DNA of 62,670 bases from Paracoccaceae bacterium. Its GTDB lineage: Bacteria > Pseudomonadota > Alphaproteobacteria > Rhodobacterales > Rhodobacteraceae. Positions 12,373 to 43,609 of this stretch are shown here, one piece after another (the stretch's first letter is position 1; each line of letters begins with the position of its first letter). The stretch is taken from positions 1 through 62,670 of the forward strand of contig SKIF01000005.1 of the NCBI GenBank assembly GCA_007116575.1, read 5' to 3'. The translations under genes were made by a program, and so were the position numbers. Below the pieces are notes generated by a model. It saw only the letters and a program-made list of their open reading frames with translations, was not told where the DNA came from and did not search any database.

Positions 12373-12384
12373 ATTTCGATCCTT

Positions 12385-12430
12385 CATTTTCTTGCTGAAA
12401 ATACTCCGGGGGTGCGGGGGCAGAGCCCCC
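12385..12430 (-). repeat. REP-like dispersed element, copy A (between paaA and paaB)
   Basis: Read on the minus strand, this is a GGGGGC/GCCCCC hairpin (loop of 3) followed by GGAGTATTTTCAGCAAGAAAATG. The same GGAGTATTTnnnGCAAGAAAAT module next to a hairpin recurs at about 30127-30178 and 36709-36759. All three are intergenic. This copy lies inside the paa operon, just before the paaB ribosome-binding site, and could trim or stabilise the transcript. Confidence 0.7.
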
Positions 12431-12432
12431 GC

Positions 12433-13410: not shown

Positions 13411-13426
13411 GTCCTGACCTCCAGTC

Positions 13427-14632: not shown

Positions 14633-14665
14633 GGATGCTCCTCCCAAAGCAGATGACGCCGAAAC

Positions 14666-22643: not shown

Positions 22644-22890
22644 CACCTCTCTCCTTGATACAACCACAACACAACGCGCAAGGAAACGCACCACAGAATG
22701 GCCGCGCGAAGCGTCAACGAATGAATTGGGATCACGACAAAACGGTCTCGTAACCGGTTTATGTTATGGAAAAATTATCCAACCGTCACACAAAAACAGG
22801 CGCTTATTATCCATGAAGGGGAAACACAGCGTTTTCCCACATCACCAGGTCTGACCCGCGCCCGCGCGCGGTGCCTAGGCGGGCGGGCGC

Positions 22891-23031
22891 TCAGCGGACC
22901 TTGGCGGGCGAAAGGGTAAAGACCGGCTCCATCCGCGCCAGAATACTCTCGGCCACCCAGGTCTGCCGATACCAGCCGCCCTCGGGGTGCGGCGAAAGGT
23001 CAAAATGCGCGATGATCTCATCCGCCGTCAT
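22891..23031 (-). pseudogene. Chimeric 46-codon frame: cupin_5 N-terminus joined to an ABC-ATPase tail
   Basis: The ATG at 23031 overlaps the soxG stop (ATGA). The first 27 residues (MTADEIIAHFDLSPHPEGGW, then YRQTWVA) are the N-terminus of a cupin_5/DUF985 protein. The remaining 19 residues contain ILARMEPVFTLS, identical to the C-terminal tail of the ABC ATPase at 28005-30098, and the DNA is likewise very similar. The frame then stops at TGA 22891. This is a recombination joint, not a normal gene. The other half of the cupin gene lies at 21192-21341. Confidence 0.8.
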
Positions 23032-23561
23032 GCCAGCGCACGTCTGGCGGCGACCATGCGCATGGCGCGGTCAAGCTCATGCGACAGACTGCCTGCCATG
23101 GAGCGATAGGTCCACAGATCGAAAGCGGTTTCACTCTGCTTCACCAGCAGGAGCGGCAGATGCCCCAGCAGCGTGCGCACCGAGGAAGGCACCGCCAGCG
23201 CGCGCAGATCCATCGCGACCAGCCGCGCCAGCACGGCCTGCGCATCCGCGCCCTCCAGTTGCGCACCGGCCCAGCCGTCGGACTGATCGCTCAGCGCGGC
23301 ATGGCGTTCCAGCCCCTCGGGCAGGCCTTCACCAAAGGCAAAGGCCTGCCCGCGCCCGACCCAGACCAGACGCAGTGTCGTGTCCAGCACTTCACCCGGC
23401 GCCGGAAAGCCGCCAAGCGCGCTTGCCAGCGCCTCGGTCTGGCCGGGCAAGGGGGCAATCGCCGTGATGCGCACAGGCGGCACCGAGTCCAGCCGTGCGG
23501 CACCATGGACCAACGGCAGGTGCAGCCCGGCGAAAGGGTCACTTGCAGACAGCTCAATCAC
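23028..23561 (-). CDS. soxG: Sarcosine oxidase gamma subunit
   Basis: SoxG is the smaller structural subunit of heterotetrameric sarcosine oxidase. The 177-residue product starts at a GTG (23561; MIELSASDPFAGLHLPLVHG) with GGAGGG about 8 bases upstream. It overlaps the soxA stop by 8 bases. Segments VRITAIAPLPGQ, LRLVWVGRGQAF, AVLARLVAMDLRALAVPSSV and ETAFDLWTYRSMAGSLSHEL fit the family. A longer upstream frame would run deep into soxA and is rejected. Last functional gene of the sox run. Confidence 0.92.
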   Translation of the reverse strand: MIELSASDPFAGLHLPLVHGAARLDSVPPVRITAIAPLPGQTEALASALGGFPAPGEVLDTTLRLVWVGRGQAFAFGEGLPEGLERHAALSDQSDGWAGAQLEGADAQAVLARLVAMDLRALAVPSSVRTLLGHLPLLLVKQSETAFDLWTYRSMAGSLSHELDRAMRMVAARRALA

Positions 23562-26478
23562 GCATCCGCCCTCCCTCTGGGTCGAAGAATACCGGGTCGC
23601 ACAGGCTGACCTCGCAGCGCTGGCCCCGCAACCCGTCCTCCAGCCGCAACCGCGCGCCATGCCTTGCGCGCCCGTTCACGACCAGAGCCAGCCCCAGCCA
23701 TGTCCCGAGCGTCGGCGAGTAGCAGGCCGATGTCACATGCCCCTCGACATGGGCCGCCGTTGCCGGGGCATCGGGCTGGAAAAGGCTCGCCCCCGCCGCG
23801 ATCCCGGCTTGCGGGTCGGACGGGCGCAGGCCGACCAGTTGCATCCGCTCGGGGCCGGTCAGACCGGGGCGCTGGCTTGCAGCGCGCCCGATGAAATCCT
23901 TCTTGCTCGACATCATTCCCTGCATACCAAGGTCGAACGCCGTCACACGCCCGTCGATCTCGGCATGGGTGATGAAGCCCTTCTCGATACGCAACACATT
24001 GAGCGCCTCCATCCCGTAGGCACCGCCCCCGAGCCCCTCGGCCAGCGCTACCAGATGGCGGAACAGGTCGGCCCCGAAGCGGGCAGGCACCGCGAGTTCA
24101 TAGCCTTTTTCGCCACTGAAAGAGATGCGGAACAGCCGCCCTGCCACCGCCCCGATCTGCACAGGGCAATACCCCATGAAGGGCAGGTCCGGCACCTCGC
24201 CCAGAACATGGCCCAGTACCTCGCCCGCCAGCGGCCCGGCAACCGCCATCTGCGCCCAATTCTCGGTCACAGAGGCGAGGCGCAGCTGCCAGCCCCGGCA
24301 GAATGCCTGCTGCACGAATTCTAGGTGCTGCATCACCTCGCCTGCGGCAGCGGTGGTGGTCGTCACCAGATAGTCATGCTCGTTCAGTCGCGCGCAGGTC
24401 CCGTCATCCATGACATGGCCATCCTCGCGCAGCATCAGCCCATAGCGGACGCGCCCGACAGCAAGGCGCGACATGGTGCCGGTATAGACAAAATCCAGAA
24501 ACCGCCCCGCATCCGGCCCCTGCACGGCGATCTTGCCCAGCGTCGAGACATCGCAGACCCCGACCGTCTGTCGGACAAAGCCCGTTTCGCGGTTGCAGGC
24601 CGTGCGCCAGTCCGCGTCACCCGCTTGCGGGAAATAGCTGGGCCGGTACCACAACCCCGCCTCGATCATCGGCGCACCCATCGCGCGGGCCTGCGCGTCC
24701 GAAGTCGTGCGCCGCTCGGGCCGGAACCCTGCGCCCTTCGCCCCGGCCCCAAGCGCCCCGATGCTGACCGGCACGAAGGGCGGCCGGAAGGTGGTGGTGC
24801 CCGTCTCCGGAATGCTGCCACCTGTCGCGTCGGCCAGCACTGCCAGCGCGCCCATATTCGACGACTTGCCCTGATCGGGCGCCATCCCTTGCGTGGTGTA
24901 GCGCTTCATATGCTCGACCGAGGCAAACCCCTCTTGTGCTGCGAGCGTCACATCCTTGGTGGTCACATCATTGGCGAAATCCAGCCATGCCCGCCCCTTT
25001 GCCTTTACCTGCCAGAGTGGGCGGAGCGCATAGGCACTGTCCTCGGCCTCCGGCAAGACCATGTCAGGGGCTTTGAGGCCCAACTCTGCAAGCGCGGCCT
25101 GCGCGGCCTCCACCCCATCGGCCAGACAGGCGGCAATCGAGAAACGCCCCCGCGCGGCCCCGGCGGCCTCCAGCCCCGGCACCATGCCGGGGCGCGGCAC
25201 GAACGCCGCAATCGCTTCGTCCCAGACCGGGCGCGCGCCATGGTGGCACGTCAGCGCCAATGTCGGGTTCCAGCCCCCCGAGAGCGCGAGTGTGTCGCAG
25301 GCAATCCGGCTTTCACGCCCGCGTACGCGAATCGTGACCTCACGCAAGCCATGCCGACCCCGCGTAGCCACCACTTCGCCCCCGCTGTGGAACGGGAAGG
25401 GGGTATCGCCCGCGACATCCTCACGCGGGTCGATATAGGCGGCGATCTGCATGCCCTGATCGGCCAGCACCTGAGCACTTGCCAGCGCATGGTCATTATT
25501 GCCAAACACCACCACGCGCCCCGGATCAACCGCCCAGCGGTGCCAGTAGCTGGCGACAGCACTCAGCAGCATCACCCCCGGACGGTCATTGCCGGGATGC
25601 GCAATCGGTCGCTCGAGCGCGCCACTGGCAAGGATTGCGCGCCTCGCCGTGATCCGCCAGTAGCATTCGCGCGGCGCAAGCCCCGGTTCGGCCAGATGCT
25701 GGCCGACGCGCTCCAAAGCGCCGAACACCCCGCCATCATAGGTGCCGAAAATACTCGTGCGCGGCATGAGGCGGACATTGGGCAGGGCGGTCAGTTCCGC
25801 CAGCACCCCCTGCACCCAGTCCTCTGCCCCCTGCCCGTCAATCTGCCCGGCCTGTGACAGCAAACGCCCACCCATCTGGCGGTCTTCTTCGGCGAGGATC
25901 ACATCCGCCCCCGCGCGACCCGCCGTCAGCGCAACCATCAGCCCAGTCGGGCCAGACCCGATCACCAGCAGGTCACAAAAGGCAAATGCGCGCTCGTGCA
26001 GGCTCTCATCATGGGCGCGCGGCAAGCGGCCCAAACCGGCGGCACGGCGAATGACAGGCTCGTAGAGCCGCTCCCAGAAGGCGCGCGGCCACATGAAGGT
26101 CTTGTAATAAAACCCTGCACTCAGGAAAGGCGCGAACAGGTCATTGACGGCCATCACATCGTGCCGGACCGAGGGCCAGCAATTCTGCACCCGCGCCTCC
26201 AGCCCGGAATGCAATTCCTGCAGCGTGGCGCGGATATTGGGGTGAAACGTCCCGTCGCGCTTCAACTCGACCAGTGCATTGGGCTCTTCACTGCCAGCCG
26301 TCAGCACTCCGCGCGGGCGGTGATACTTGAAGGATCGCCCCATCAGCCGCACATTATTGGCCAGCAGCGCCGAGGCCAGTGTGTCGCCCCTGCAGCCTGT
26401 CATCTCGCGCCCGTCGAAGTGGAAGCGAACCGCACGCCCGCGGTCCAAAGCACTGCCCCCTGTCACCCGGCGCTTCAT
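23554..26478 (-). CDS. soxA: Sarcosine oxidase alpha subunit
   Basis: SoxA is the large subunit that binds NAD and carries a folate-binding half. The 974-residue length is normal. The N-terminal part shows the ferredoxin-like region (FHFDGREMTGCRGDTLASAL), a Rossmann motif (FCDLLVIGSGPTGLMVALTA), and a middle oxidoreductase domain. The C-terminal half (about 600-960) is a GcvT-type aminomethyltransferase domain with GVCDVSTLGKIAVQGPDAGR and GEKGYELAVPARFG. The enzyme oxidises sarcosine to glycine and passes the methyl group to tetrahydrofolate. The start overlaps soxD by ATGA. Confidence 0.97.
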   Translation of the reverse strand: MKRRVTGGSALDRGRAVRFHFDGREMTGCRGDTLASALLANNVRLMGRSFKYHRPRGVLTAGSEEPNALVELKRDGTFHPNIRATLQELHSGLEARVQNCWPSVRHDVMAVNDLFAPFLSAGFYYKTFMWPRAFWERLYEPVIRRAAGLGRLPRAHDESLHERAFAFCDLLVIGSGPTGLMVALTAGRAGADVILAEEDRQMGGRLLSQAGQIDGQGAEDWVQGVLAELTALPNVRLMPRTSIFGTYDGGVFGALERVGQHLAEPGLAPRECYWRITARRAILASGALERPIAHPGNDRPGVMLLSAVASYWHRWAVDPGRVVVFGNNDHALASAQVLADQGMQIAAYIDPREDVAGDTPFPFHSGGEVVATRGRHGLREVTIRVRGRESRIACDTLALSGGWNPTLALTCHHGARPVWDEAIAAFVPRPGMVPGLEAAGAARGRFSIAACLADGVEAAQAALAELGLKAPDMVLPEAEDSAYALRPLWQVKAKGRAWLDFANDVTTKDVTLAAQEGFASVEHMKRYTTQGMAPDQGKSSNMGALAVLADATGGSIPETGTTTFRPPFVPVSIGALGAGAKGAGFRPERRTTSDAQARAMGAPMIEAGLWYRPSYFPQAGDADWRTACNRETGFVRQTVGVCDVSTLGKIAVQGPDAGRFLDFVYTGTMSRLAVGRVRYGLMLREDGHVMDDGTCARLNEHDYLVTTTTAAAGEVMQHLEFVQQAFCRGWQLRLASVTENWAQMAVAGPLAGEVLGHVLGEVPDLPFMGYCPVQIGAVAGRLFRISFSGEKGYELAVPARFGADLFRHLVALAEGLGGGAYGMEALNVLRIEKGFITHAEIDGRVTAFDLGMQGMMSSKKDFIGRAASQRPGLTGPERMQLVGLRPSDPQAGIAAGASLFQPDAPATAAHVEGHVTSACYSPTLGTWLGLALVVNGRARHGARLRLEDGLRGQRCEVSLCDPVFFDPEGGRMRD

Positions 26479-26732
26479 CCTGCCTCCTCCACGGCGGTGC
26501 TGCCCGTGACAGCGTGCGTCACGGTATCACGCGCGACCTCCAGCCATGTGCCGCAGGGGGCGTGGTACCACAGGTCACGCGCGGGCCCTGCCGGGTTGTC
26601 GCGCAGGTGAAGGTAATTGTCCCACGCTTCAGGCGGCGCATCCGCTTCCGGGCGGTCGCAATAGTCCGCTGCCCCGATACAGGTGAACTCGCGCATATCT
26701 CGCCATCCGCAGCAGGGGCAGGGCAAATACAT
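26475..26732 (-). CDS. soxD: Sarcosine oxidase delta subunit
   Basis: SoxD is a small zinc-binding subunit. The 85-residue protein has the expected CPCCGWRDMREFTC cysteines near the N-terminus and DLWYHAPCGTWLEVARDTVT with the His and Cys that complete the site. It lies 9 bases after soxB and overlaps soxA, the standard B-D-A-G order. Confidence 0.96.
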   Translation of the reverse strand: MYLPCPCCGWRDMREFTCIGAADYCDRPEADAPPEAWDNYLHLRDNPAGPARDLWYHAPCGTWLEVARDTVTHAVTGSTAVEEAG

Positions 26733-26741
26733 GATCGGACC

Positions 26742-27992
26742 TCAATGCAGATTGTGCTGGCTGCCCTTGCCCTCTTCATCGAGAAGATGGCCCGTGGCAA
26801 AGCGGTCAAGACGGTAGCGGCGCGCGACGGGGTGGGGCTGATCGGTGGCCATCAGATGCGCCATGCACCAGCCCGAGGCAGGTACCGCCTTGAACCCGCC
26901 ATAGCACCAGCCTGCATCGAGATAGAGCCCCTCGATGGGCGTGCGGTCGATGATCGGCGAGCCATCGGGCGTCATGTCCATGATCCCGCCCCAGGAGCGC
27001 AGCACCTTCGCCCGCCCGATCATCGGCATCAGCGCCATGCCCGCCTCCATCACCTGCTCGACGCCGGGCAGGTTGCCGCGCGCGGCATAGGATGGGTAGA
27101 AATCGAGATCACCCCCAAAGACAAGCCCGCCCTTGTCGGACTGGCTGATATAGAAATGCCCCATGCCGAAGCTGATCACATGATCGATGCAGGGCTTGAG
27201 CCCTTCGGTGACAAAGGCTTGCAGGATGTGGCTCTCGATGGGCAGGCGCAGCCCGGCCATGGCGGCGACCTGAGATGTGCGTCCGGCGGTCACGATCCCC
27301 ACCTTGCGCGCGCGGATCTCGCCGCGGGTGGTTGACACGCCAGTCACGCGCCCGCTCTCAACCGAAATGCCCGTCACCTCGCAATTCTCGATCAGATCGA
27401 CGCCGCGCTGGTCGGCCCCGCGCGCATAGCCCCAGGCGACGGCATCGTGCCGCGCCGTGCCGCCGCGCTTGTGATAGAGCCCGCCATAGATCGGAAACCG
27501 CGCTTGCTCAAAATCGAGATAGGGCAGGATCGCGCGCACCCCCTCGCGGTCCAGCAGGATCGCATCATCACCCTGCGCCAGCATCGCATTGCCGCGCCGG
27601 GCGAAAGCGTCGCGCTGTCCGTCCGAATGGAACAGGTTGATCAGCCCGCGCTGCGAATGCATCACGTTGTAATTCAGCTCGTCCTCCAGCCCCTCCCAGA
27701 GCTTGAGTGAATGGCTGTAGAACTCGGAATTGCCGGGCAGGAAGTAATTGGCACGCACAATGGTGGTGTTTCGCCCGATATTACCGCCGCCGAGATAGCC
27801 TTTCTCCAGCACGGCGATATTGGTCAGCCCGTGGTTCTTCGCGAGGTAATACGCCGTCGCCAGACCATGCCCGCCACCCCCGATGATAAGCATGTCATAG
27901 TCTGGCTTGGGGTCGGGCTTGCGCCAATGCGGCTTCCAGCCGCGGTTGCCCGCGAGCCCTTCCTTCAGAATACGAAAGCCGGAAAATTGCAT
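26742..27992 (-). CDS. soxB: Sarcosine oxidase beta subunit
   Basis: SoxB binds the covalent FMN and FAD where sarcosine is oxidised. The 416-residue protein shows the FAD-binding MLIIGGGGHGLATAYYLAKN, VLEKGYLGGGNIGRNTTIVR, and the C-terminal IDRTPIEGLYLDAGWCYGGF, then KAVPASGWCMAHLMA. It lies 12 bases after the ABC ATPase gene, so uptake and oxidation genes are probably cotranscribed. Confidence 0.97.
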   Translation of the reverse strand: MQFSGFRILKEGLAGNRGWKPHWRKPDPKPDYDMLIIGGGGHGLATAYYLAKNHGLTNIAVLEKGYLGGGNIGRNTTIVRANYFLPGNSEFYSHSLKLWEGLEDELNYNVMHSQRGLINLFHSDGQRDAFARRGNAMLAQGDDAILLDREGVRAILPYLDFEQARFPIYGGLYHKRGGTARHDAVAWGYARGADQRGVDLIENCEVTGISVESGRVTGVSTTRGEIRARKVGIVTAGRTSQVAAMAGLRLPIESHILQAFVTEGLKPCIDHVISFGMGHFYISQSDKGGLVFGGDLDFYPSYAARGNLPGVEQVMEAGMALMPMIGRAKVLRSWGGIMDMTPDGSPIIDRTPIEGLYLDAGWCYGGFKAVPASGWCMAHLMATDQPHPVARRYRLDRFATGHLLDEEGKGSQHNLH

Positions 27993-28004
27993 CGCGCGCA
28001 GCCC

Positions 28005-30098
28005 CTACTCGGCAGCTTCGTTGCTGAGGGTAAAGACAGGCTCCATCCGCGCGAGAATATCATCTGCAAGATGGCACTTGATCTGATGTCCCTCCGGAAG
28101 CTTGCGCATCGGCGGCACCTCGGTTTCACACAAACCTCCGGGCACGTCCGATTTCCAGCGACAGCGCGTCTGGAACGGGCAACCCGGTGGCGGGTTCATG
28201 GCCGAGGGGATGTCACCTTCCAGCACGATGCGCTTTTTCTGCACGGTAGTATCGGCCACCGGCACGGCAGACAGCAGCGCCTCGGTATAGGGGTGATAGG
28301 GGGGCGCGAAGACCTGATCGGTGGTGCCAAGCTCGACCACATGGCCCAGATACATGACCATGACCCGGTCAGACAGATACCGCACGATCGAAAGGTCATG
28401 GCTGATGAACAAAAGCGTCGTGCCGTTCTTGCGCTGGATATCCATCAGAAGCTGGGTGACTGCGGCCTGCACCGAAACATCGAGCGCAGAGACCGGCTCA
28501 TCGGCCACCACCACTTTCGCATCACCCGCAAATGCGCGCGCAATGCCCACGCGCTGTTTCTGCCCGCCCGAAAGCTGGCGCGGCATCCGTTCGGCGAAGG
28601 CACGCGGCAGTTTCACCAGATCGAGAAGTTCAAGCATCCGCTGCCTGCGCTCGGCTGGCGTCCGGCCCACTTTGAAGATCTCTAGCGCGCGGATGATCTG
28701 GGCACCGACGGTCATGGACGGGTTGAGCGTGTCGAACGGGTTCTGGAACACCATCTGCAACGAGGACACCGTGTCGGTATTGCGTTGCTGAATGGGGGTG
28801 GATTGCACATTCTCGTCAAACAGCATGATCTTGCCACCCGATGCCGTCTCGAGCCCCATCAGCACCTTGGCAAAGGTGGACTTGCCGCAGCCGGACTCGC
28901 CCACAATGGCCAGTGTCTCGCCCTCGCGCGCGTCGAAACTCAGCGTCTCGTTGGCCTTGACGACCTTGGTCTCGCCACCTGAAAACAGGGCCGAGGCAGC
29001 CACTTCGTAGTATTTACGCACATCATCCATCTTGAGGACGACATCGCCAATGGACGTGGCCTCGGCCTGCTCGGTGCTTTCCCATGCCGCATCCCAGTCG
29101 ATCTCGTCGATGCGCAGGCAGCGGCTTTCATGGCGGTCATCGCCCGGAAGCTCTGACATGGCGATATCCTTGGCATCGCAGTGTCCAGACTTGAAGTAGT
29201 CGCAGCGCGGTCCGAAATTGCAGCCCGGCGGGCGCTCATGCGGCAGTGGAAAATTGCCCGGAATCGCGCGCAGAGGACGCGCGGTCTTGGAGGCCGAGGG
29301 CAACGGGATCGCCCGGAACAGCGCCTGCGTATAGGGGTGGCGCATCTTGTTGAACACGTCGGTGATGTTCCCGGTCTCGACCGCCTCGCCCGAATACATG
29401 ACGCAGAGCCGGTTGCAGGTCTCCATCACCAAACCGAGATTGTGGCTGATGAACAGCATCGATGTGCCGTATTTCCGGCCCAGATCCTTGACCAGATCGA
29501 CAATCCCGGCCTCGACCGTCACGTCGAGCGCGGTGGTCGGCTCATCCAGGATCAAGAGCGTAGGGTTGGCCATCAGCGCCATCGCGATGACGATGCGCTG
29601 CTGCTGCCCCCCCGAAAGCTGGTGCGGATAGGCATCGAGGATGCGGTCGGGGTCGGGCAGACGCACATCGGCGACAAGCTGGCGGGCACGGGCGCGGGCC
29701 TGCCCTGCCTGCATGTTCTGATGGATCATCGGCACTTCCATCAGTTGTCGCCCGATCTTCATTGCCGGGTTCAGCGAGGCCATGGGTTCCTGATAAATCA
29801 TGGCGATTTCCGAGCCGCGAATTTTCGCCAGTTCGGCCGCACTCATGGTGTTCAGATCGCGCCCCTTGAACTTTATGGTGCCACCGACGATCCGGCCATT
29901 CACGCCCAGATCCTGCATTACACCCAGCGCCACGGTGGATTTGCCGCAGCCGGATTCGCCCACCAGCCCCATCGCCTCGCCGGGCATGACCGTGCAGGAG
30001 AAATCCATCACCGCCGGAATTTCGCGGGCGCGGGTGAAGAAGGAGATCGAGAGGTTCTCGATTTCGAGAATCGGCTTCGAAGGGTCCCATTCGGTCAT
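28005..30098 (-). CDS. Fused dual-ATPase subunit of a peptide/opine-type ABC transporter (DppD-DppF)
   Basis: This 697-residue protein contains two complete ABC domains. The first has Walker A GLVGESGCGKSTVALGV and signature LSGGQQQRIVIAMAL with Walker B LLILDEPTTALDV. The second has IVGESGCGKSTFAKVLMG, LSGGQKQRVGIARAFAGD and VVADEPVSALDVSVQ. Each is followed by the Cys-containing oligopeptide C-terminal extension (RPPGCNFGPRCDYFKSGHC and PPPGCPFQTRCRWKSDVPGG), which in related proteins can hold iron-sulfur. The ATG at 30098 is chosen for GGGAG upstream and the family start. Its C-terminal tail reappears at 22894-22950. Confidence 0.94.
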   Translation of the reverse strand: MTEWDPSKPILEIENLSISFFTRAREIPAVMDFSCTVMPGEAMGLVGESGCGKSTVALGVMQDLGVNGRIVGGTIKFKGRDLNTMSAAELAKIRGSEIAMIYQEPMASLNPAMKIGRQLMEVPMIHQNMQAGQARARARQLVADVRLPDPDRILDAYPHQLSGGQQQRIVIAMALMANPTLLILDEPTTALDVTVEAGIVDLVKDLGRKYGTSMLFISHNLGLVMETCNRLCVMYSGEAVETGNITDVFNKMRHPYTQALFRAIPLPSASKTARPLRAIPGNFPLPHERPPGCNFGPRCDYFKSGHCDAKDIAMSELPGDDRHESRCLRIDEIDWDAAWESTEQAEATSIGDVVLKMDDVRKYYEVAASALFSGGETKVVKANETLSFDAREGETLAIVGESGCGKSTFAKVLMGLETASGGKIMLFDENVQSTPIQQRNTDTVSSLQMVFQNPFDTLNPSMTVGAQIIRALEIFKVGRTPAERRQRMLELLDLVKLPRAFAERMPRQLSGGQKQRVGIARAFAGDAKVVVADEPVSALDVSVQAAVTQLLMDIQRKNGTTLLFISHDLSIVRYLSDRVMVMYLGHVVELGTTDQVFAPPYHPYTEALLSAVPVADTTVQKKRIVLEGDIPSAMNPPPGCPFQTRCRWKSDVPGGLCETEVPPMRKLPEGHQIKCHLADDILARMEPVFTLSNEAAE

Positions 30099-30126
30099 AG
30101 CTCGCGCTCCCGCTGTGAGGGCAGGA

Positions 30127-30178
30127 GCGGGGGTTTCACACCCCCGCACCCCCGTGGAGTATTTCCGGCAAGAAAATG
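30127..30178 (+). repeat. REP-like dispersed element, copy B
   Basis: GCGGGGG/CCCCCGC hairpin (30127-30147), then GGAGTATTTCCGGCAAGAAA (30156-30175), the same module as at 12385-12430 in the opposite orientation. It lies between the permease and ATPase genes, antisense to their transcription. Confidence 0.7.
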
Positions 30179-30180
30179 CA

Positions 30181-31344: not shown

Positions 31345-31356
31345 GCCTGCCCCCGA

Positions 31357-32448: not shown

Positions 32449-32546
32449 CCTGCCTCCTGTCTTCTGGGGCACCGGTGAGGCGCGTTGACTTTCTTGGCAA
32501 AGCGGGGTGGCGCGGCGGGGTTAACCGCCGCGCGAAGGCTACCGGT

Positions 32547-34184: not shown

Positions 34185-34356
34185 TTGTGTCTCCCGTGTT
34201 GGATTGGATCGGCTTTTGTTGTTCTGGCCTCTTTGCCGAGGGATATTCTTATTCCGCGCCCATAGCTTGCGCAGATCGCGGCCAAATTCGACCCTTTTCA
34301 GATTGAAACCGACGCGAGGTGCAGTTGCAACCTATACTTCGTGCCAAACGACATAA

Positions 34357-35589: not shown

Positions 35590-36680
35590 GCTCCGGCCTC
35601 GAAGGCATCAAACAGAATCACATTGCGCCGCGTGCCGCCTTTGGCGGTGTCGGCGATGGCCTCGTTGATCTTCTCCAACGAGTAGCGGTTCGAGATCAAC
35701 TCGTCGAGCTTGAGCCGCCCCTGCCGGTAAAGCTCGATCAGGCGGGGAATATCGCGGCGCAACACGGTGCCGCCCATTTTCGACCCGATCAGCCGCTGTT
35801 CCTGATAGGCCACCATCATCGGGTTCAGGCGCATGTAATCATCATTGCCGGTCATCCCCGCCATGATGATGCTGCCCCCCGGCGCGCACATCCCCAGCGC
35901 CTGCTCGTAGGCGACGACTGCACCGACGGTGACAAAGACGTAATCCGCCCCGCGCCCATCGGTCAGCCGCCGCACCTGTTTGCGGGCATCTGCATCCGTG
36001 GCCAGCACACTGTCAGTGGCGCCGAATTCGCGCGCGGCGTCGAGCTTCTCCGGGGCGACATCCAGCGCGATGATCCGTCGCGCGCCTGCGATCCGCGCGC
36101 CCTGAATCGCGTTCAGCCCCACACCACCCGTGCCGATTACCACGGTCGTGGCCCCGGCGGGCATGGCGGCAGTGTTGAACACAGCACCGACGCCAGTGAT
36201 GACACCGCAGGCCAGCAGGCAGGCCACGTCCAGCGGAACATCATCCGGCAGCGGGGCCAGCTGGCTGGCATCGACCACCACCTTCTCGGCGAAGGCACCG
36301 GTCTTCATACCCTGCGTGACCGGAGCGCCATCGGGCAAAGAGAGGGGTGATTGGGCATCGCCCCCATCCTCGCAGATCACCGGGCGCCCGTCACTGCAGC
36401 ACTGGCAGGTGCCGCAGGCGCGGATCAGCGTGACCAGCACGCGCTGGCCCATCTGATAGCCGCTGACCCCGCTGCCAAGGCCAGTGACGAACCCTGCGGC
36501 CTCATGCCCATAAACCGCCGGCAGCTCGCCACCCCAGGCCCCTTCGATGAAATGCAGGTCGGAGTGGCAGATCGCACAGGCCGCCAGAGTCACCTCGACC
36601 TCGCCCGCACGCGGCGGGGCCAGCATGATCTCGGTAGTTTCGAGGGGGGCGTTGAAGGCAGTGCAGAGGGCGGCTTTCAT
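35586..36680 (-). CDS. Zinc-dependent alcohol dehydrogenase (class III-like)
   Basis: The 364-residue protein is a GroES/MDR dehydrogenase. Catalytic zinc ligands appear in CAICHSDLHFIEGAWGGELP with GHEAAG. The structural zinc Cys set is CGTCQCCSDGRPVIC. The NAD site is VIGTGGVGLNAIQGARIAGA. The ATG at 36680 (MKAALCTAF) is the family start; the long upstream frame is spurious. In an N-demethylation cluster an alcohol or formaldehyde-glutathione adduct is a possible substrate, which is inference. It follows the REP-like element, copy C. Confidence 0.9.
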   Translation of the reverse strand: MKAALCTAFNAPLETTEIMLAPPRAGEVEVTLAACAICHSDLHFIEGAWGGELPAVYGHEAAGFVTGLGSGVSGYQMGQRVLVTLIRACGTCQCCSDGRPVICEDGGDAQSPLSLPDGAPVTQGMKTGAFAEKVVVDASQLAPLPDDVPLDVACLLACGVITGVGAVFNTAAMPAGATTVVIGTGGVGLNAIQGARIAGARRIIALDVAPEKLDAAREFGATDSVLATDADARKQVRRLTDGRGADYVFVTVGAVVAYEQALGMCAPGGSIIMAGMTGNDDYMRLNPMMVAYQEQRLIGSKMGGTVLRRDIPRLIELYRQGRLKLDELISNRYSLEKINEAIADTAKGGTRRNVILFDAFEAGA

Positions 36681-36708
36681 TCGCAGGTCTTTCTTCTGGA
36701 TGAGGGGA

Positions 36709-36759
36709 GCCGACCTGCGGTCGGCTGCCTCCGGCGGGAGTATTTGCGGCAAGAAAATA
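36709..36759 (+). repeat. REP-like dispersed element, copy C
   Basis: GCCGACC/GGTCGGC hairpin (36709-36725), then GGGAGTATTTGCGGCAAGAA (36737-36756). It is the third copy of the module, between the flavoprotein and dehydrogenase genes, in the same orientation as copy B. Confidence 0.7.
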
Positions 36760-39303
36760 TCAGCTTCGCATGCGCGCCCCCTGCGGGTCAAAGGGCGGAT
36801 CGAGGGCAAGGCGGGCCGGGCGGCGGCACCCGAGGATTTCCACCTCGAAGAGACCCTCTTCTGCGCGTGTGGCGAGCTCGGCGGGGATATAGCCCTGCGC
36901 GAGTGAGCAGCCGACATGATGGCCATAGCCGCCTGAAGTGACCCAGCCCACCACGCGCCAGTCACCATCTTCCGAAGGGTGTGGCGTGGGAAGCGCATTG
37001 CCCTGCGCATCAAAACGCGCGGGGCCGAGGCTGTGCGGCGCGGTGATGGTGCCGAATTCCTCCGCCACCCGCGCCCAGATCGGCTCATCCGCGATGGCAT
37101 CGGCATCCTCCGCCTCGACGATCAGCGACACGCGGCGCAGCCGGGGGCCTTCGTCACGCTCCTTGAGCGCGGGCTCGCGACCAATGAAATCGGGCTTGTC
37201 CCAGGCGACGAAGCGTTCCATCGCGCCCTCGACGGGGCCGTAGATCGGGCGCAATTCGGCAAACCATGTCGGGAAGTTCTTCTCGAAGCGCATCGACAGA
37301 AGCGCGCGCATCCCGAAATCGCGGATCCCATGCACCGCCCCGGCGTCCTTGATCGCGCTATAGACGCGGCGCTGGTACTCGGGCTGGATCCAGATCTCGT
37401 AACCCAGATCGCCAGTATAGGTGATGCGGTTGACCATGCAGGGCGCACCCGCGACATCCATTTCGCGGAAATCCATGAAGCGGAACGCCTCGTTCGAGAT
37501 GTCTTCGTCAACCAGTGCAGCCAGAACATCGCGCGCTTTCGGCCCGGCAATCGACAGCCCCATCAGTCCCATGCCGAGCGCGCGTAGCTGCACGCTGCCA
37601 TCCCGCGGCTGATGCGCCTCGAACCAGCGCAGATGATATTTCGTCGCCCCAAGCGAGCCCCAGATCAGAAAACGCTCGGGCGCGGCGCGGGCGATGGTGA
37701 AATCACCGATCAGCTTGCCTTGGGGGTTGAGCATCGGCGTCAGTACAATCCGCCCGAGCTTTGGCATCCGGTTGGTCATCAGCCTGTCAAGGAAGGCCTC
37801 GGCACCAGGCCCTGTCACTTCGTATTTCGCGAAATTGGCGATCTCGGTGACGCCGACGCTCTCGCGCACCGCACGGACCTCGGCACCCACATGCTCGAAA
37901 TCATTGGAGCGATGGAAGGAGAGCACATCATGCGCCTCCTCTGCCGAGGGGGCGAACCAGAGCGGCGTTTCCAGCCCCCAAGTATCGCCCAAGACCGCAT
38001 TCTGCGCGCGCATCAAGTCATAGAGCGGCGTCGTGAGATGCGGACGGGCGGCGGGCAGTTCCTCGTTCGGGAAGCGGATCGAGAAGCGCCGGGAATAGTT
38101 TTCACGCACCTTGGCGTTGGTGTAGCGTAACGTCGCCCAGTCGCCATAACGCGCGACATCCATGCCAAAGACATCATGGCCGGGGTCGCCCGTGGTCATC
38201 CAGTTGGCCAGCACCAGCCCGACCCCGCCACCCTGGCTGAATCCGGCCATGACGGCGCAGGCCGACCAGTAATTCGTCAGTCCCTGCACGGGCCCGACCA
38301 GCGGGTTGCCATCGGGGGCGAAGGTGAAGGGGCCGTTGATGATCTGCTTGATGCCCGCACGTTCATAAGGCGGGAAGTGGCGGAAACCGACCTCTAGCGA
38401 GGGCGCAAGGCGGTCGATATCGGGCTGCAAGAGTTCATGGCCGAAATCCCACGGTGTCTGCACTGGCGACCACGGCTTGCAGGCTTTTTCGTATGTGCCC
38501 AGCAGGATGCCCTTGCCCTCCTGCCGCGTATAGATCTCGCCCTTGAAGTCGATCACATGGATCAACTCGCGGCCCATGCTTTCGTTGAACTCGATCACCT
38601 CGGGCATGGGTTCGGTCAACAGATACATATGCTCCATCGCCAGAACCGGCAGTTCCAGCCCGACCATGCGCCCGACCTCTCGCGCCCAAAGCCCGCCGGC
38701 ATTGACCACATGTTCGCAGCGATAAGTGCCCTTTTCGGTGATGACATTCCATGTGCCATCGGAGTCTTGCGTCAGTTCCCTGACCGGGTTGCGCAGCTCG
38801 ATCTTTGCCCCCAGCATCCGCGCGGCCTTGGCATAGGCATGGGTGGTGCCCGACGGGTCCAGATGCCCTTCGACCGGGTCCCACAGCGCACCGACGAAAT
38901 GGCTTTCATCCATCAGCGGGAACATCGCCTTGGCCTCGGACGGGGTGATGATCTCGGTTTCCATCCCCAGATACCGCCCGCGCGCATGGGCCATGCGCAG
39001 AAAGTCCAGCCGCTCGGGGCTGTCGGCCATCTGCACGCCGCCCACCAGATGCAGGCCACAGGATTGCCCGGTCATCTTCTCCAGCTCGTCATAGAGCGAA
39101 ATCGTATAGGCCTGCAGGCGGGCCACATTGGGGTCACCGTTGAGCGTGTGAAAGCCCCCCGCCGCGTGCCAGGTCGAGCCCGAGGTGAGTTCGGAGCGTT
39201 CGATCAGCAGCACATCGGTCCAGCCCGCTTTCGCAAGATGATAGAGCACCGAGCAGCCGACGACGCCCCCTCCGATAACGATGGCACGATAGGTCTGGGT
39301 CAT
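36760..39303 (-). CDS. Dimethylglycine-dehydrogenase-like FAD oxidoreductase with GcvT domain
   Basis: The 847-residue protein has a DAO-type flavin domain (IVIGGGVVGCSVLYHLAKAG, then ELTSGSTWHAAGGFHTLNGD, where the His is in the position of covalent FAD attachment in dimethylglycine dehydrogenase), a FAO_M linker (about 390-440) and a C-terminal glycine-cleavage T domain (about 440-830; FRFMDFREMDVAGAPCMVNR and SGGYGHHVGCSLAQGYIPAE). It would oxidatively demethylate an N-methyl amino acid such as dimethylglycine and pass the methyl group to folate. It overlaps the PhnD-like stop by ATGA. Substrate among dimethylglycine, sarcosine and others is not resolved. Confidence 0.93.
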   Translation of the reverse strand: MTQTYRAIVIGGGVVGCSVLYHLAKAGWTDVLLIERSELTSGSTWHAAGGFHTLNGDPNVARLQAYTISLYDELEKMTGQSCGLHLVGGVQMADSPERLDFLRMAHARGRYLGMETEIITPSEAKAMFPLMDESHFVGALWDPVEGHLDPSGTTHAYAKAARMLGAKIELRNPVRELTQDSDGTWNVITEKGTYRCEHVVNAGGLWAREVGRMVGLELPVLAMEHMYLLTEPMPEVIEFNESMGRELIHVIDFKGEIYTRQEGKGILLGTYEKACKPWSPVQTPWDFGHELLQPDIDRLAPSLEVGFRHFPPYERAGIKQIINGPFTFAPDGNPLVGPVQGLTNYWSACAVMAGFSQGGGVGLVLANWMTTGDPGHDVFGMDVARYGDWATLRYTNAKVRENYSRRFSIRFPNEELPAARPHLTTPLYDLMRAQNAVLGDTWGLETPLWFAPSAEEAHDVLSFHRSNDFEHVGAEVRAVRESVGVTEIANFAKYEVTGPGAEAFLDRLMTNRMPKLGRIVLTPMLNPQGKLIGDFTIARAAPERFLIWGSLGATKYHLRWFEAHQPRDGSVQLRALGMGLMGLSIAGPKARDVLAALVDEDISNEAFRFMDFREMDVAGAPCMVNRITYTGDLGYEIWIQPEYQRRVYSAIKDAGAVHGIRDFGMRALLSMRFEKNFPTWFAELRPIYGPVEGAMERFVAWDKPDFIGREPALKERDEGPRLRRVSLIVEAEDADAIADEPIWARVAEEFGTITAPHSLGPARFDAQGNALPTPHPSEDGDWRVVGWVTSGGYGHHVGCSLAQGYIPAELATRAEEGLFEVEILGCRRPARLALDPPFDPQGARMRS

Positions 39304-40004
39304 GCAGTCTCCTCGAGGGTGGGAATGGCGCCAAGCGTGGCCAGCGCACGGGTCAGGCGAGCGCGCAACGCGGGTGGCGTGGAGCGCGCGGTGATGAAGG
39401 GCAGCCCCGGGCGCAGGGCAGTCCAGCCAGTGACGACAAGCTTTCGCGCCGCAGGCTCATGTTCCAGCGCCATGGCCCATGAGCGGCAGTCGATCGCGGC
39501 ATAATCGGCGCGACCCTCGGCCACGGCACAGATCGAAGCGCGATGGCTGCCCGTGACCAGCGGTGCCACAATCGGTTGGCCGGTGTCTTCGGCCAGGGCG
39601 AGGCATCCCGACAGCGAATCGCGCGCATTGATGGCCGCGCGCATAGAACCCAGACCGTCCGGCAGGCTTGCGCCGGGATCAGGCGGCACCGGGCAGCCCT
39701 GCCCCGCGCGCATCACGATGGCCGAACGATACTGCGTGCCACGCCCGCCCGGCACATCATCATAAAGCGGCTGTCCAAGCAGGGCGACATGCGCGGCAAG
39801 CCCGTTGCGCAGCGGCCCCCAGCAGGTCTGGCCCAGCATCAGCGCCGGGTCGCGCCAGAGGGCGTGAAGGGCGGTCGCGCTGTCAGGCCGGGTCAGGGTT
39901 TCGGCAAGCTCGGGCACCAGCACGCGCATCCGGGCATGGAAAGCTTCGACCTGCCCGCGTGTCTCGGGCCAGTCATACATCGGCAGACAGACAAGCCCGC
40001 TCAT
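39300..40004 (-). CDS. PhnD-like periplasmic-binding-fold protein without a signal peptide
   Basis: The 234-residue product resembles phosphonate/phosphite (PhnD-type) binding proteins: ALWRDPALMLGQTCWGPLRN, RAGQGCPVPP, AINARDSLSGCLAL, SHRASICAVAEGRADYAAID. It starts MSGLVCLPMYDWPETRGQVE with no hydrophobic leader, so it is probably cytoplasmic. It is coupled by ATGA overlaps to both the desaturase-like gene and the flavoprotein gene. A cytoplasmic sensor or a ligand-binding accessory seems more likely than a transporter part. Function unassigned. Confidence 0.8.
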   Translation of the reverse strand: MSGLVCLPMYDWPETRGQVEAFHARMRVLVPELAETLTRPDSATALHALWRDPALMLGQTCWGPLRNGLAAHVALLGQPLYDDVPGGRGTQYRSAIVMRAGQGCPVPPDPGASLPDGLGSMRAAINARDSLSGCLALAEDTGQPIVAPLVTGSHRASICAVAEGRADYAAIDCRSWAMALEHEPAARKLVVTGWTALRPGLPFITARSTPPALRARLTRALATLGAIPTLEETA

Positions 40005-40945
40005 GCCGCCTGTCCGTCGAGAGGTGCCTCAGGCGGATCGACTTCGGGGGGCGGGGGTGCGGGGATCTGGTGCAGGACCGGATGGATAACGGGCTCCTTC
40101 GCCCAAATCGCATGAGCGCGGAACAACTGCCAATAGTTGCGATAGACATATCCGTGATTGAGCGCGTGCCAGTGGTCGCGACGCTCGGCATATAGACGGG
40201 GCAGCGCATACCAGGGGGCCTGCGGTATCTTATGATGCACGATATGCAGGTTGTTGTTCAGAAACAGCCATGCCAGCGGCGAGCGCTCGACGATGATCGT
40301 CCGGCCCTCGGCGGCGTCATGCCAGCGGTGTTCGGCGAAGGTGCGGATCGAGATCAGCGAAAGCGCCGGCCAGACCACAGCCAGCAGATAGAGCCAAAGC
40401 GGAATACCCCATGCCCAGAGCAGTGCCAGCACAGGCACCATCCCCAGCAGATGCAGCGACCAGGCCACGCGCACGCCGTGTGTATCCGCGCGCAACAGAC
40501 GCAACTCCTGCGCTACAAACCCCGCCGCGCCCAGCACCGGCCCAAGCACCAGCCGCCCCAGCATGGTATTGTTCACGCGCAGCAGCATCTGCAGCCAGCG
40601 CGGCATCCGGTCGTGCTGCCAGCGGGCCTTGTAATAGCTTTCGGGGTCATCAAACGGGTCGGTAAGTCGATCATCATGATGATGCGCCAGATGCGTGGCC
40701 TTGTAGCGCCGGTAGGGGTAGATCAGCGACAGCGGCAGCGCGACCAGCGCCTCGTTCGCATGCCTGTTGCGGGTCGGGTGGCCATGCAGGCATTCATGCA
40801 CGAGCGAGGAATGCAGCGCCGCCATCACGGCCATGAGCGCCAGCGCGGCCAGCGGGGAGATGGGCCAGAGAGCCGCGCCGCCGATCACCCAGAGCGCATG
40901 GCAGCTCAGGATCATCGCAACTGTCGGCCATTCGATGCGGCGCAT
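40001..40945 (-). CDS. Membrane fatty-acid-desaturase-superfamily protein
   Basis: The 314-residue protein has several membrane helices and the histidine-rich boxes of membrane di-iron enzymes: HSSLVHECLHGHPTRNRH near 45-60, KATHLAHHHDDRLTDP near 85, AEHRWHD near 210 and NNLHIVHHKIP near 235. The ATG at 40945 has GAGGGG upstream; the in-frame ATG 12 codons earlier is less likely. It is coupled to the PhnD-like gene. In an N-methyl cluster it may hydroxylate or demethylate a substrate instead of acting on fatty acids; that is speculative. Confidence 0.85.
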   Translation of the reverse strand: MRRIEWPTVAMILSCHALWVIGGAALWPISPLAALALMAVMAALHSSLVHECLHGHPTRNRHANEALVALPLSLIYPYRRYKATHLAHHHDDRLTDPFDDPESYYKARWQHDRMPRWLQMLLRVNNTMLGRLVLGPVLGAAGFVAQELRLLRADTHGVRVAWSLHLLGMVPVLALLWAWGIPLWLYLLAVVWPALSLISIRTFAEHRWHDAAEGRTIIVERSPLAWLFLNNNLHIVHHKIPQAPWYALPRLYAERRDHWHALNHGYVYRNYWQLFRAHAIWAKEPVIHPVLHQIPAPPPPEVDPPEAPLDGQAA

Positions 40946-41077
40946 TCTGTCCCCTCTCTCACATCCGGAGAGTGCCGCCAAACTCTTCTGCCAACAATAT
41001 GAGTGTTCTCGTCACCATTCTGCACGCTTGAAGTTTATAGTCACATATGTTTACTAAAGTGAGCACAAGGTCCGCAG
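40946..41077. promoter_or_regulatory. Divergent promoter region between the desaturase-like and XRE genes
   Basis: This 132-base AT-rich interval separates oppositely oriented genes. GTCACATATGTTTACTAAAG followed by TGAG contains an imperfect TCAC...GTGA pair near 41040-41062, a possible operator for the XRE regulator. No promoter hexamer is certain. Confidence 0.4.
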
Positions 41078-41917
41078 ATGCTGAACAAACGCGAATCCTC
41101 AAGCCTGTTTCGTACCCGTCTGACGCAGTTGCTGGCGCAGTCGGGCCTGACACAATTGACTTTTGCGCAGGCCATCTGCATCGACCGTTCGGCTCTGTCG
41201 CAATTGCTGCACGGCCCTGACCCGCGCCTGCCGCGCGCCGAGACGCTGCTGGCCATCGCCGCGCAGTTCAATGTCTCGACCGACTGGCTGCTCGGGTTGA
41301 GCGAGGACAGCGGGGCCGTGACCCAGACCCTCGATTCGGTCGAGACCGAGGCGGCGCTGGATGACCAGAGCCGGACAGCAATGGAACGCTGGCACGAGGA
41401 CGCGACCGGGCAGAAGATCCGCTATGTTCCGGCGCAGTTGCCTGACCTGATGCGCACGCCGGAGATCATCGCCTTTCAGGCGCAGGCCTCCGAGCAGGAA
41501 CAACGCCGCCTGCAGGCCCAGACCCAGCGCCGCCTGCGCCTGTCGCGCGCGCCCGAGGCCGATATCGAGATGTGCATGCCATTGCAGAGCTTCGAGATCT
41601 TCGCTGATGGCGGAGGCGTCTGGCGCGGGCTTTCGCGCGACGCGCGCGCCGCCCAGCTTGCGCATATCGCGCAGACCGTGGACGAGCTTTACCCGGCCTT
41701 CCGCATGTATCTTTTCGACGGTCGCAAGCGGTTCGCGCCGCCGATGACCATGTTCGGCTATACGCGTGCGGCGGTCTATGCGGGCGATGTGTATCTGCTG
41801 ATCCGCTCCAAACGCCTGATCCGGGAACTGGCGCAGGGGTTTGACGGGCATATCCGCGCGGCCGAGGTACACGCGCATGAGGCAGCGGAGTGGGTGCGCA
41901 GGCTGCAAGCGTGCTGA
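41078..41917 (+). CDS. XRE-family HTH transcriptional regulator
   Basis: The 279-residue protein begins with an XRE helix-turn-helix (about 10-70): LTQLLAQSGLTQLTFAQAIC, then IDRSALSQLLHGPDPRLPRA and FNVSTDWLLGLSED. The rest (about 110-279) is a ligand- or partner-binding domain ending in HEAAEWVRRLQAC that I do not recognise. It diverges from the desaturase-like gene and precedes the MttB-family gene by 126 bases, so it is the likely local regulator of the N-methyl cluster. Confidence 0.88.
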   Translation: MLNKRESSSLFRTRLTQLLAQSGLTQLTFAQAICIDRSALSQLLHGPDPRLPRAETLLAIAAQFNVSTDWLLGLSEDSGAVTQTLDSVETEAALDDQSRTAMERWHEDATGQKIRYVPAQLPDLMRTPEIIAFQAQASEQEQRRLQAQTQRRLRLSRAPEADIEMCMPLQSFEIFADGGGVWRGLSRDARAAQLAHIAQTVDELYPAFRMYLFDGRKRFAPPMTMFGYTRAAVYAGDVYLLIRSKRLIRELAQGFDGHIRAAEVHAHEAAEWVRRLQAC

Positions 41918-42043
41918 ACAGGGCGCGCAGGGCTACCCTGGGACGGGAGGCCCAAACCCTGCTTGCGTGTTGCCAACACTCCTCTTGCCGAAGCCGCGTT
42001 GCTGCGCCTAGCTGGCGGGGCTCTGGCAAGAAAAAGGTGCCCG

Positions 42044-43609
42044 ATGGATACCGACACCCCAGCACCAGACCGCCGCCGCCGTTCGGGCGGGCGGGGTGGC
42101 AATGCCCGGCGCAGCGACGGGTTCCGGCTCGACCAGATGCCGTGGCGGCAACCGGTCAATACCGACCGCCCGACCGAGCCGCTTGACGCGGACGGGGTCG
42201 AGGCGATCCACCAAGGCGCGCTGCGCATCCTGTCGGAAATCGGGGTCGAGTTCCTCAATGACGAGGCGCTGGCCCTGTTCCGGCAGGCGGGCTGCATCGT
42301 CGAGGGGCATAATGTCCGTATGGATGGCGCATTCGTCGACGCCATGCTGGCACGCGCGCCGGGACCATTCACCATCACACCGCGCAATCCCGACCGCGCT
42401 GTGCGAATCGGTGACGGGCATATGGCCTTCGTCAATGTCTCTTCCCCGCCCTCGAGCTGGGACATGGTGCGGGGCAAACGCGCGGGCGATTTCGCGACAT
42501 TCCGCGAATTCCTGATGCTGACGCAGACATTCAACTGCATCCATGTCGCGGGCGGCTATCCGGTCGAGCCGGTGGATGTTCACCCGTCGGTCCGACATCT
42601 CGACTGTATTGCCGAAAAGCTGATCCTGACCGACAAGGTGGCACATGCCTATAGCCTTGGCCGCGAACGGGTCGAGGATGCGATGGAGATGGTGCGCATC
42701 GCCGCCGGCCTGAGCCATGCCGAATTCGATACCGCCCCGCGCATGTATACCAATATCAACTCGGTCTCGCCGCTGCGGCACGACTTTCCCATGATCGACG
42801 GGGCGCTGCGACTGGCGCGGCGGGGTCAGCCTGTGGTGGTCACGCCCTTTACCCTGGCGGGCGCGATGGCCCCGGTGACGATGGCGGGTGCGGTGGCTCA
42901 ATCACTGGCTGAGGCGCTCTGCGCCATCGCGCTGATCCAGTACGCGGCCCCCGGTGCGCCCGTGGCCATCGGCACCTTCACCTCGAATGTCGACATGCGT
43001 TCGGGCGCGCCAGCGTTCGGGACGCCCGAATACATGCGCGCCACGCAGATGACCGGGCAACTGGCGCGGCGCTACGGTCTGCCGCTGCGCTCGTCGGGGG
43101 TCTGCACAGCCAATATCCCCGACGCGCAGGCGATGTGGGAGACCGGCAACAGCCTCTGGGCAGCCGTGCAGTCGGGCTCGAACCTCGTCTATCACTCGGC
43201 GGGCTGGCTGGAGGGCGGGCTGATCGCGAGCCCCGAGAAATTCGTCATGGATTGCGAGTTGCTACAGATGGTCCAGCGTTATTTCGACCCGATGCTGACC
43301 GCAACGACGCCAGACGATATTGCCGTTGATGCCATCCGCGAGGTGGGCGCAGGCGGACATTTCTTCGGCGTCGGCCATACTCAGGCGCGCTATGAAACCG
43401 CGTTTTATTCCCCCTTTGCCTCGGACTGGCGCAATTTTGAAGCCTGGGAGCGTGACGGTGCCACAGACACGATTACCCGCGCGCACAGGATCTACCGCCA
43501 GATCGTCGAGCAATTCACCCCGCCCCCGATGGACGATGCGATCCGCGAGGAACTTCTCGCCTTCGTGGCACGGCGCAAGGAAGAAGGCGGCGCGCCTACC
43601 GATTTCTGA
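42044..43609 (+). CDS. MttB-family (COG5598) methyltransferase without pyrrolysine
   Basis: The 521-residue protein belongs to the trimethylamine methyltransferase family. It shows GALRILSEIGVEFLNDEALA, TPRNPDRAVRIGDGHMAFVN, APRMYTNINSVSPLRHDFPM and the C-terminal HFFGVGHTQARYETAFYSP. No in-frame TAG is present, so it is a non-pyrrolysine member; related members are known to demethylate glycine betaine and similar quaternary amines. No corrinoid protein or reductive activase is in the window. The ATG at 42044 follows AAGGTG; an earlier frame start is weaker. It probably supplies dimethylated product to the flavoprotein at 36760-39303. Confidence 0.88.
   Translation: MDTDTPAPDRRRRSGGRGGNARRSDGFRLDQMPWRQPVNTDRPTEPLDADGVEAIHQGALRILSEIGVEFLNDEALALFRQAGCIVEGHNVRMDGAFVDAMLARAPGPFTITPRNPDRAVRIGDGHMAFVNVSSPPSSWDMVRGKRAGDFATFREFLMLTQTFNCIHVAGGYPVEPVDVHPSVRHLDCIAEKLILTDKVAHAYSLGRERVEDAMEMVRIAAGLSHAEFDTAPRMYTNINSVSPLRHDFPMIDGALRLARRGQPVVVTPFTLAGAMAPVTMAGAVAQSLAEALCAIALIQYAAPGAPVAIGTFTSNVDMRSGAPAFGTPEYMRATQMTGQLARRYGLPLRSSGVCTANIPDAQAMWETGNSLWAAVQSGSNLVYHSAGWLEGGLIASPEKFVMDCELLQMVQRYFDPMLTATTPDDIAVDAIREVGAGGHFFGVGHTQARYETAFYSPFASDWRNFEAWERDGATDTITRAHRIYRQIVEQFTPPPMDDAIREELLAFVARRKEEGGAPTDF

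Follow-up and report, generated by a model that had tools for sequence, protein, structure and literature searches.

A stretch of 62,670 nucleotides at the start of contig SKIF01000005.1 (assembly GCA_007116575.1, Paracoccaceae bacterium; hereafter the window) carries, at 23028-43609, a gene block that is a conserved unit in the clade of genomes bearing it and that we read, at just short of an even chance, as an XRE-controlled N-demethylation cassette leading from glycine betaine (GBT) to glycine and fed by an imported precursor, the substrate being a proposal. Family and profile searches of the window proteins bore out every gene product that a first-pass annotation of this DNA had named in the interval. 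The minus strand encodes, in order of transcription, a membrane di-iron desaturase/hydroxylase, a PhnD-like protein, the dimethylglycine dehydrogenase-like flavoprotein FadT, an alcohol dehydrogenase (ADH), an enolase-superfamily enzyme, the solute-binding protein (SBP), two permeases and double ATPase of an ATP-binding cassette (ABC) importer, and the sarcosine oxidase genes soxB, soxD, soxA and soxG; the genes for an XRE-family regulator and then an MttB-superfamily methyltransferase diverge from this run on the plus strand. In the scheme that we propose, the importer would take up a trimethylammonium compound, from which the desaturase, ADH and enolase would most likely make GBT or an equivalent, and the N-methyl groups would be removed in three steps under XRE control. 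MttB would move the first methyl onto the cobalamin protein MtgC, and MtgD would pass it from MtgC to tetrahydrofolate, both proteins being encoded elsewhere; FadT would oxidize dimethylglycine, yielding methylene-tetrahydrofolate; and SoxBDAG would convert sarcosine to glycine, in trans where a cluster is without sox genes. For the PhnD-like protein, ligand binding in the cytosol, as a sensor or partner, is the probable role.

A profile search of genome contigs with the SBP alignment gave 369 confirmed stretches, the best 80 of which were taken as loci. Enolase, FadT or ADH is also present in 36 of these 80, as scored by a script that keeps only the stronger of two overlapping matches and counts matches covering >15% of the query, so that some of its “absent” entries may be wrong, notably for adh, and some of its “present” genes are truncated where the stretch ends (mttB in L127, L130, L132 and L139). 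Among the 36 loci, mttB is present in 14, absent from 3 and out of view in 19; the desaturase, XRE and PhnD genes are present in 15, absent from 3 and out of view in 18; and the corresponding figures for soxB are 12, 7 and 17. The survey of conservation that the first-pass annotation had proposed shows identical gene order and strands in all 13 public loci in which eight or more of the 11 non-sox genes are seen. All 11 are found in nine loci (L130, L139, L146, L147, L155, L158, L164, L168 and L169), with mttB incomplete at the end of the stretch in L130 and L139, and with L168 and L169 appearing to be the same genomes as G222 and G037. The carriers, some with partial loci, are Natronohydrobacter, Roseinatronobacter, Rhabdonatronobacter, Pararhodobacter, Rhodobacter sp. 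NTK016B and metagenome-assembled genomes (MAGs) of Rhodobacteraceae, several of these MAGs presumably coming from soda lakes. The flanks of the block differ among the three genomes compared (window, G037 and G222). Overlaps of 4 bases join desaturase to PhnD, PhnD to FadT and ADH to enolase in the window, and the same -4 base overlap recurs in 12/13, 11/14 and 8/11 of the loci measured, respectively. Measured against L127 and L130, the genes for the SBP, one permease, enolase, ADH, FadT and XRE have a ratio of nonsynonymous to synonymous substitution rates (dN/dS) of 0.06-0.17 (the second permease being measured against L127 only); the desaturase and PhnD genes evolve faster, at 0.26-0.35 versus 0.06-0.11 for fadT, the enolase gene and the SBP gene. 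Rows for soxA and soxB at 28-31% identity represented paralogs and were dropped, and mttB yielded no value. Searches of an open-licence literature library gave no description of this gene combination.

The chain from MttB through a dimethylglycine dehydrogenase-like enzyme to sarcosine oxidase, with one-carbon units passing to folate, had been put forward in the first-pass annotation and fits the predicted protein families. FadT (36760..39303, minus strand) combines a flavin adenine dinucleotide (FAD) oxidase with a folate-binding aminomethyltransferase in the DAO, FAO_M, GCV_T and GCV_T_C architecture of dimethylglycine dehydrogenase. Its best PDB match is dimethylglycine dehydrogenase 5l46, and its STWHAAG stretch, which we take to be the covalent-FAD histidine stretch of that enzyme, is identical in alignment to 5l46 and 4p9s. 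With two candidates scored per genome, G000, G037 and G222 each gave one FadT match at E<=1e-250, and FadT looks like the only close dimethylglycine dehydrogenase of the window genome. A copy of 75% identity in G001 (L102) adjoins formate-tetrahydrofolate ligase and FolD genes, and in L103, L104 and L115 no more than 3 kb separates MttB from a FadT relative of 58-60% identity, which supports a functional pairing of MttB and FadT. All four subunits of heterotetrameric sarcosine oxidase are encoded in the block on the minus strand, namely beta (soxB, 26742..27992; TIGR01373, 667 bits, cut-off 529), delta (soxD, 26475..26741, start approximate; PF04267, E 8.9e-26), alpha (soxA, 23554..26478; TIGR01372, 1206 bits, cut-off 1164) and gamma (soxG, 23028..23561, GTG start by eye; TIGR01375, E 2.2e-11, 43.8 bits, below the cut-off of 144), and syntenic soxG matches occur in L131, L142, L143, L146 and others. 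We ruled out that Sox is a fixed part of the cluster, soxB being absent from 7 of the 19 loci where it would be visible. The L155 genome has a soxB of 84% identity further along the same contig, and cluster-type soxB (82-86%) was found in 7 of 9 other genomes searched, which were reached through importer loci; the best soxB copies in G394 and G404 reach only 66-68%.

The MttB of the block (41963..43609, plus strand, likely ATG start near 42044 by eye) matches PF06253 with 712 bits over residues 40-543 and profile positions 1-500 of 500, that is, at full length, and its frame is open with no in-frame amber codon or other stop, as in the non-pyrrolysine type. It is one of three MttB copies in the window genome. 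The C83 copy scores 744 bits to 4yyc and 400 bits to 2qne, versus 346 and 286 bits for the window MttB, and the two copies are 39% identical; on these grounds the window MttB is of a second class (class B), distinct from the C83 copy, which is closest to known GBT methyltransferases. Orthologs of the C83 copy (81-93%) are present in 17/17 genomes searched. The first-pass annotation had correctly noted that the window contains neither a Rieske oxygenase nor a corrinoid protein. A PF02607 search of the genome matched in two places, neither of them in the window, and one of these is a corrinoid protein: MtgC, encoded side by side with MtgE at L002, with PF02310 and PF02607 domains and MtgC as its best NCBIfam match (192 bits, below the cut-off of 370). 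MtgD is encoded at L126 (PF00809; PRK07535, 400 bits, cut-off 259), an MtgC ortholog is present in 17/17 genomes searched, and the same genome has a long MetH-like open frame with pterin- and B12-binding domains (C61). Given that MtgC, MtgE and MtgD are encoded elsewhere in the genome, the lack of a corrinoid protein in the window is not odd, and corrinoid-free chemistry, which could have been deduced from that lack, was ruled out. A search for the Rieske oxygenase alpha subunit (PF00848) gave no match in the 87%-complete window genome, while the same search matched in 4 of 14 genomes.

The XRE regulator (41078..41917, plus strand; HTH_3) probably controls the cluster. Between its gene and the desaturase gene lies an imperfect dyad, AGTCACATATGTTTACT (41039..41055, plus strand), a candidate XRE operator that, with up to 3 mismatches allowed, matches nowhere else in the window. 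The TTAC half of the dyad is found in 9 of 11 aligned intergenic regions and is one base off in L132 and L164, and the 5′ half is weak in L130, L132, L139 and L159. An operator common to several promoters was not found, the dyad occurring once in the window. A tRNA-Ala predicted by ARAGORN at 41125-41208 lies within the XRE coding sequence and is probably a false positive.

The remaining genes would supply the precursor and its conversion. The importer is encoded on the minus strand by a family-5 SBP gene (32547..34184; PF00496, SBP_bac_5) with a twin-arginine-like leader, SRREFMT, seen by eye, a permease gene (31357..32472; PF00528), an OppC-like permease gene (30181..31344; PF00528) and a double ATPase gene (28005..30149; two ABC_tran and two oligo_HPY domains) whose 3′ end lies 12 bases ahead of soxB; the window SBP is 84% identical to the L033 copy and 70% to the L099 copy. 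The Zn-dependent ADH (35586..36680, minus strand; PF08240/PF00107) had been described as class III-like, a loose label, as NDMA-dependent ADH is its best profile (310 bits, cut-off 440), ahead of class III (231 bits, cut-off 544). Its gene overlaps that of the enolase-superfamily (MR/MLE) enzyme (34357..35589, minus strand), which has both MR_MLE N and C domains (PF02746/PF13378) and is close to the solved structures 3t4w, 3rcy and 4j3z, deposited under generic names. Enolases of the acid-sugar dehydratase type have the usual metal ligands and a His-Asp dyad. In the window enzyme the residues normally used look altered by eye, the sequence having GTHGQ where D-x-H is expected and QPA for QPD, the latter as in 3t4w and 3rcy. 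In the side loci L154 and L156, ADH, enolase, ABC and sox genes stand together without mttB, fadT, desaturase, PhnD or XRE genes, their neighbours being genes for a transaminase (PRK07046, above cut-off) and a glutamine-synthetase-like protein.

The desaturase (40001..40981, minus strand; PF00487, FA_desaturase) has histidine motifs HExLHGH, HLxHH, EHxWH and HxVHH that are invariant in 13 sequences; a Foldseek search gave no match below E 0.001 with an AlphaFold2 model that was weak (predicted local distance difference test, pLDDT, 73; 13 sequences). The AlphaFold2 model of the PhnD-like protein (39300..40004, minus strand; PF12974) shows a confident binding-protein fold at pLDDT 92, with AioX 8ed5 as its best Foldseek match (E 3.9e-11) and AioX, ArrX, PtxB and PhnD among the top matches. 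AioX and ArrX are sensory binding proteins. The N-terminus, MSGLVCLPMYDWPE, has no hydrophobic leader by eye (no signal-peptide program was used), and since the modelled fold is nearest to AioX and ArrX and a signal peptide appears to be absent, a role as sensor or partner is more likely than one as a transporter part. In particular, a part in phosphonate import is unlikely, there being no signal peptide and no adjoining phosphonate ATPase or permease (both by eye). A further locus, L217 (G030), combines desaturase and PhnD-like genes with an SBP gene whose product is 51% identical to the window SBP and with a histidine ammonia-lyase-type gene (310 bits to hutH, cut-off 539), which may hint at another substrate.

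An independent distribution of these genes across genomes, which the first-pass annotation had named as one outcome that would speak against a joint pathway, is what we found across a large part of the family; the clade carrying the block is the exception. Among 149 family genera, MttB occurs in 138 (E<=1e-100; with a copy of ~60% identity or more in 99 of these), the enolase in 109 (E<=1e-100), the PhnD-like protein in 98 (E<=1e-10) and the desaturase in 89 (E<=1e-20), and 6 of 394 genomes, three carriers among them, have FadT at >=75% identity. Beyond the carriers, the components of the block are mostly dispersed, except that mttB and the desaturase gene are often within 30 kb of each other. 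This is so in 43 of the 83 genera having both (G000 and G037 left out), by counts that ignore phylogeny, where we estimate ~1-2 of 83 by chance; the same distance holds for desaturase and PhnD in 10/81 genera and for enolase and desaturase in 5/80. The proximity of desaturase and MttB may reflect old synteny as well as function. At the level of single loci, an XRE relative adjoins the desaturase in 19/20 desaturase loci, PhnD adjoins an amino-acid-type ABC operon in 11/20 phnD loci (by eye), and ADH lies in the same stretch as the enolase in 11/20 enolase loci.

Elsewhere, parts of the block have adjoined trimethylammonium genes, the cluster itself being without them. Carnitine catabolism yields GBT, and 8 of the 20 desaturase loci (L036, L038, L041, L043, L045, L047, L048 and L050) also encode carnitine 3-dehydrogenase and BKACE close to the XRE-desaturase pair (the carnitine 3-dehydrogenase of L041 scores 800 bits, cut-off 592). 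Class-B MttB is present over most of its length in 6 of these 8 loci, in part in L038 and not at all in L045. TmpA and TmpB make GBT from 2-trimethylaminoethylphosphonate. In one of 20 enolase loci, L093 (10613-12339), TmpB (309 bits, cut-off 300) and TmpA (543 bits, cut-off 400) are encoded between enolase and ADH relatives, indicating that an enolase-ADH pair can sit with a GBT-yielding route, and the corresponding place in L092 is taken by a GbcA-like Rieske gene (307 bits, cut-off 670).

Several observations weigh against a GBT cassette fed by an imported precursor. The importer belongs to a peptide/nickel-type family, and SBP relatives of 63-67% identity sit by miaA and an AraC-type gene without catabolic genes in 5 of 8 non-cluster loci (by eye; Pfam agrees with these calls for two L170 genes). 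Probes for the carnitine, TmpAB and GbcA-like genes matched neither the window nor any of the 80 named loci, nor the 20 stretches retrieved for FadT (L099-L118). G179, a 99%-complete genome of the same genus, is without a FadT match at 1e-250, and soxB is absent from 7 of the 19 cluster loci where it would be visible. A plain GBT route leaves the desaturase, PhnD-like, ADH and enolase genes without explanation, and we know of no GBT route that needs a desaturase, an enolase or PhnD. Moreover, as the C83 copy is far nearer to GBT methyltransferases (400 vs 286 bits to 2qne) and its class is present in 17/17 genomes, the window MttB need not act on GBT. These last points bear on the suggestion, made in the first-pass annotation, of a substrate more complex than GBT: the class-B MttB would demethylate another quaternary amine, FadT and Sox would take the remaining N-methyl groups, and the desaturase-like oxygenase, ADH and enolase would degrade a chain or ring. 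We regard such a different betaine as possible but rather unlikely. The distinct MttB class and four unexplained conserved genes speak for it, as do the joint travel of the 11 non-sox genes, the coupling of desaturase, phnD and fadT by overlaps, and the grouping of adh, enolase, ABC and sox genes without mttB or fadT in L154 and L156; however, FadT, seemingly the only close dimethylglycine dehydrogenase, and Sox are ordinary relatives of that enzyme and of sarcosine oxidase, class-B MttB and desaturase outside the cluster are often near GBT-making carnitine genes, and by eye the block has no ring-cleavage or CoA enzyme. It is correspondingly doubtful that the block degrades a non-GBT betaine by an aerobic pathway not yet described, with an MttB of new specificity feeding the MtgCD route and the di-iron oxygenase, ADH and atypical enolase performing new carbon-skeleton steps.

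A plain GBT cassette with passengers would account for the extra genes differently, the desaturase, PhnD and XRE genes being an older unit (e.g., for membrane adjustment under osmotic stress) captured together with mttB. The age of the XRE-desaturase pairs and of the desaturase-mttB proximity, the frequent association of phnD with amino-acid-type ABC operons and the faster evolution of the desaturase and phnD genes are in agreement with this account, but the 4-base overlaps, kept across genera, make the desaturase gene and phnD the leading part of a transcript that continues into fadT, and we consider it an unlikely alternative, though one to be taken seriously. That the genes are chance neighbours in this genome and form no functional unit is very improbable: they do lie apart in many of the Rhodobacteraceae genera sampled, but this is contradicted by nine public loci that share one order of all 11 genes, and by flanks that differ among the three genomes compared. 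We thus retain the XRE-controlled route from an imported precursor through GBT to glycine as the preferred reading.

The GbcAB route of pseudomonads leads from GBT through dimethylglycine and sarcosine to glycine, its first step being carried out by a Rieske oxygenase. The intermediates are those proposed here, while the first step differs, with no PF00848 match in the window genome. Genes of the TmpA/TmpB pathway meet relatives of the enolase and ADH in L093, one of 20 enolase loci, and were found neither in the window nor in the 80 named loci. To our knowledge, the MttB systems of Eubacterium differ in belonging to anaerobic acetogens with no dimethylglycine dehydrogenase or Sox steps. Their likeness to the present case, as PMC12478193 describes it, is that paralogs (MtpB, MtyB, MtcB and others) with different betaine substrates use one corrinoid protein. 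The closest system is MtgBCD of Ruegeria pomeroyi DSS-3, for which Mausz et al. 2025 (PMC12478193) describe an aerobic member of the Rhodobacteraceae with an MttB-family enzyme and separately encoded MtgC, MtgD and MtgE, followed by demethylation of dimethylglycine and sarcosine. In that study MtgB, MtgC and MtgD are encoded apart, MtgC and MtgD are reported to be essential for GBT demethylation, and the Mtg proteins increase in response to GBT, choline and carnitine; it also notes that several MttB-family proteins, as many as seven, are frequent in marine bacteria having both MtgC and MtgD, and suggests that the other copies act on diverse methylated compounds (PMC12478193). Relative to that system, the present cluster packs MttB, the dimethylglycine dehydrogenase-like enzyme, Sox and an ABC importer together, adds desaturase, enolase, ADH and PhnD, and has an MttB of a class distinct from the GBT-like copy of its own genome. 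Homarine catabolism by the hom operon likewise concerns marine bacteria and an N-methyl compound, and the N-methylglutamate dehydrogenase Mgd is mentioned as a participant (Ferrer-Gonzalez et al. 2026, as cited in PMC13390433).

The N-demethylation cluster is thus real and conserved, probably XRE-regulated, and represents a variant of the aerobic Mtg route described in 2025. One MttB class is here a constant member of an operon-like block that also encodes an importer, a regulator and the downstream demethylases. Carriers include the named strains Natronohydrobacter thiooxidans AH01 and Rhabdonatronobacter sediminivivens IM2376 as well as Pararhodobacter species, which are therefore probably in culture, so that the substrate is directly testable; it would also give context to an enolase-superfamily group solved by structure under generic names.

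Elsewhere in the window, phenylacetate-degradation-like genes were recognized by eye at 6942-14647 and 57070-58389 (paaZ/paaACDE/paaJ-like and paaK-like), and the minus strand at 22100-22700 holds lysine/alanine-rich repeats with KAAKYEAKAEKYE units and 21-base tandem repeats, in a frame with one in-frame stop.

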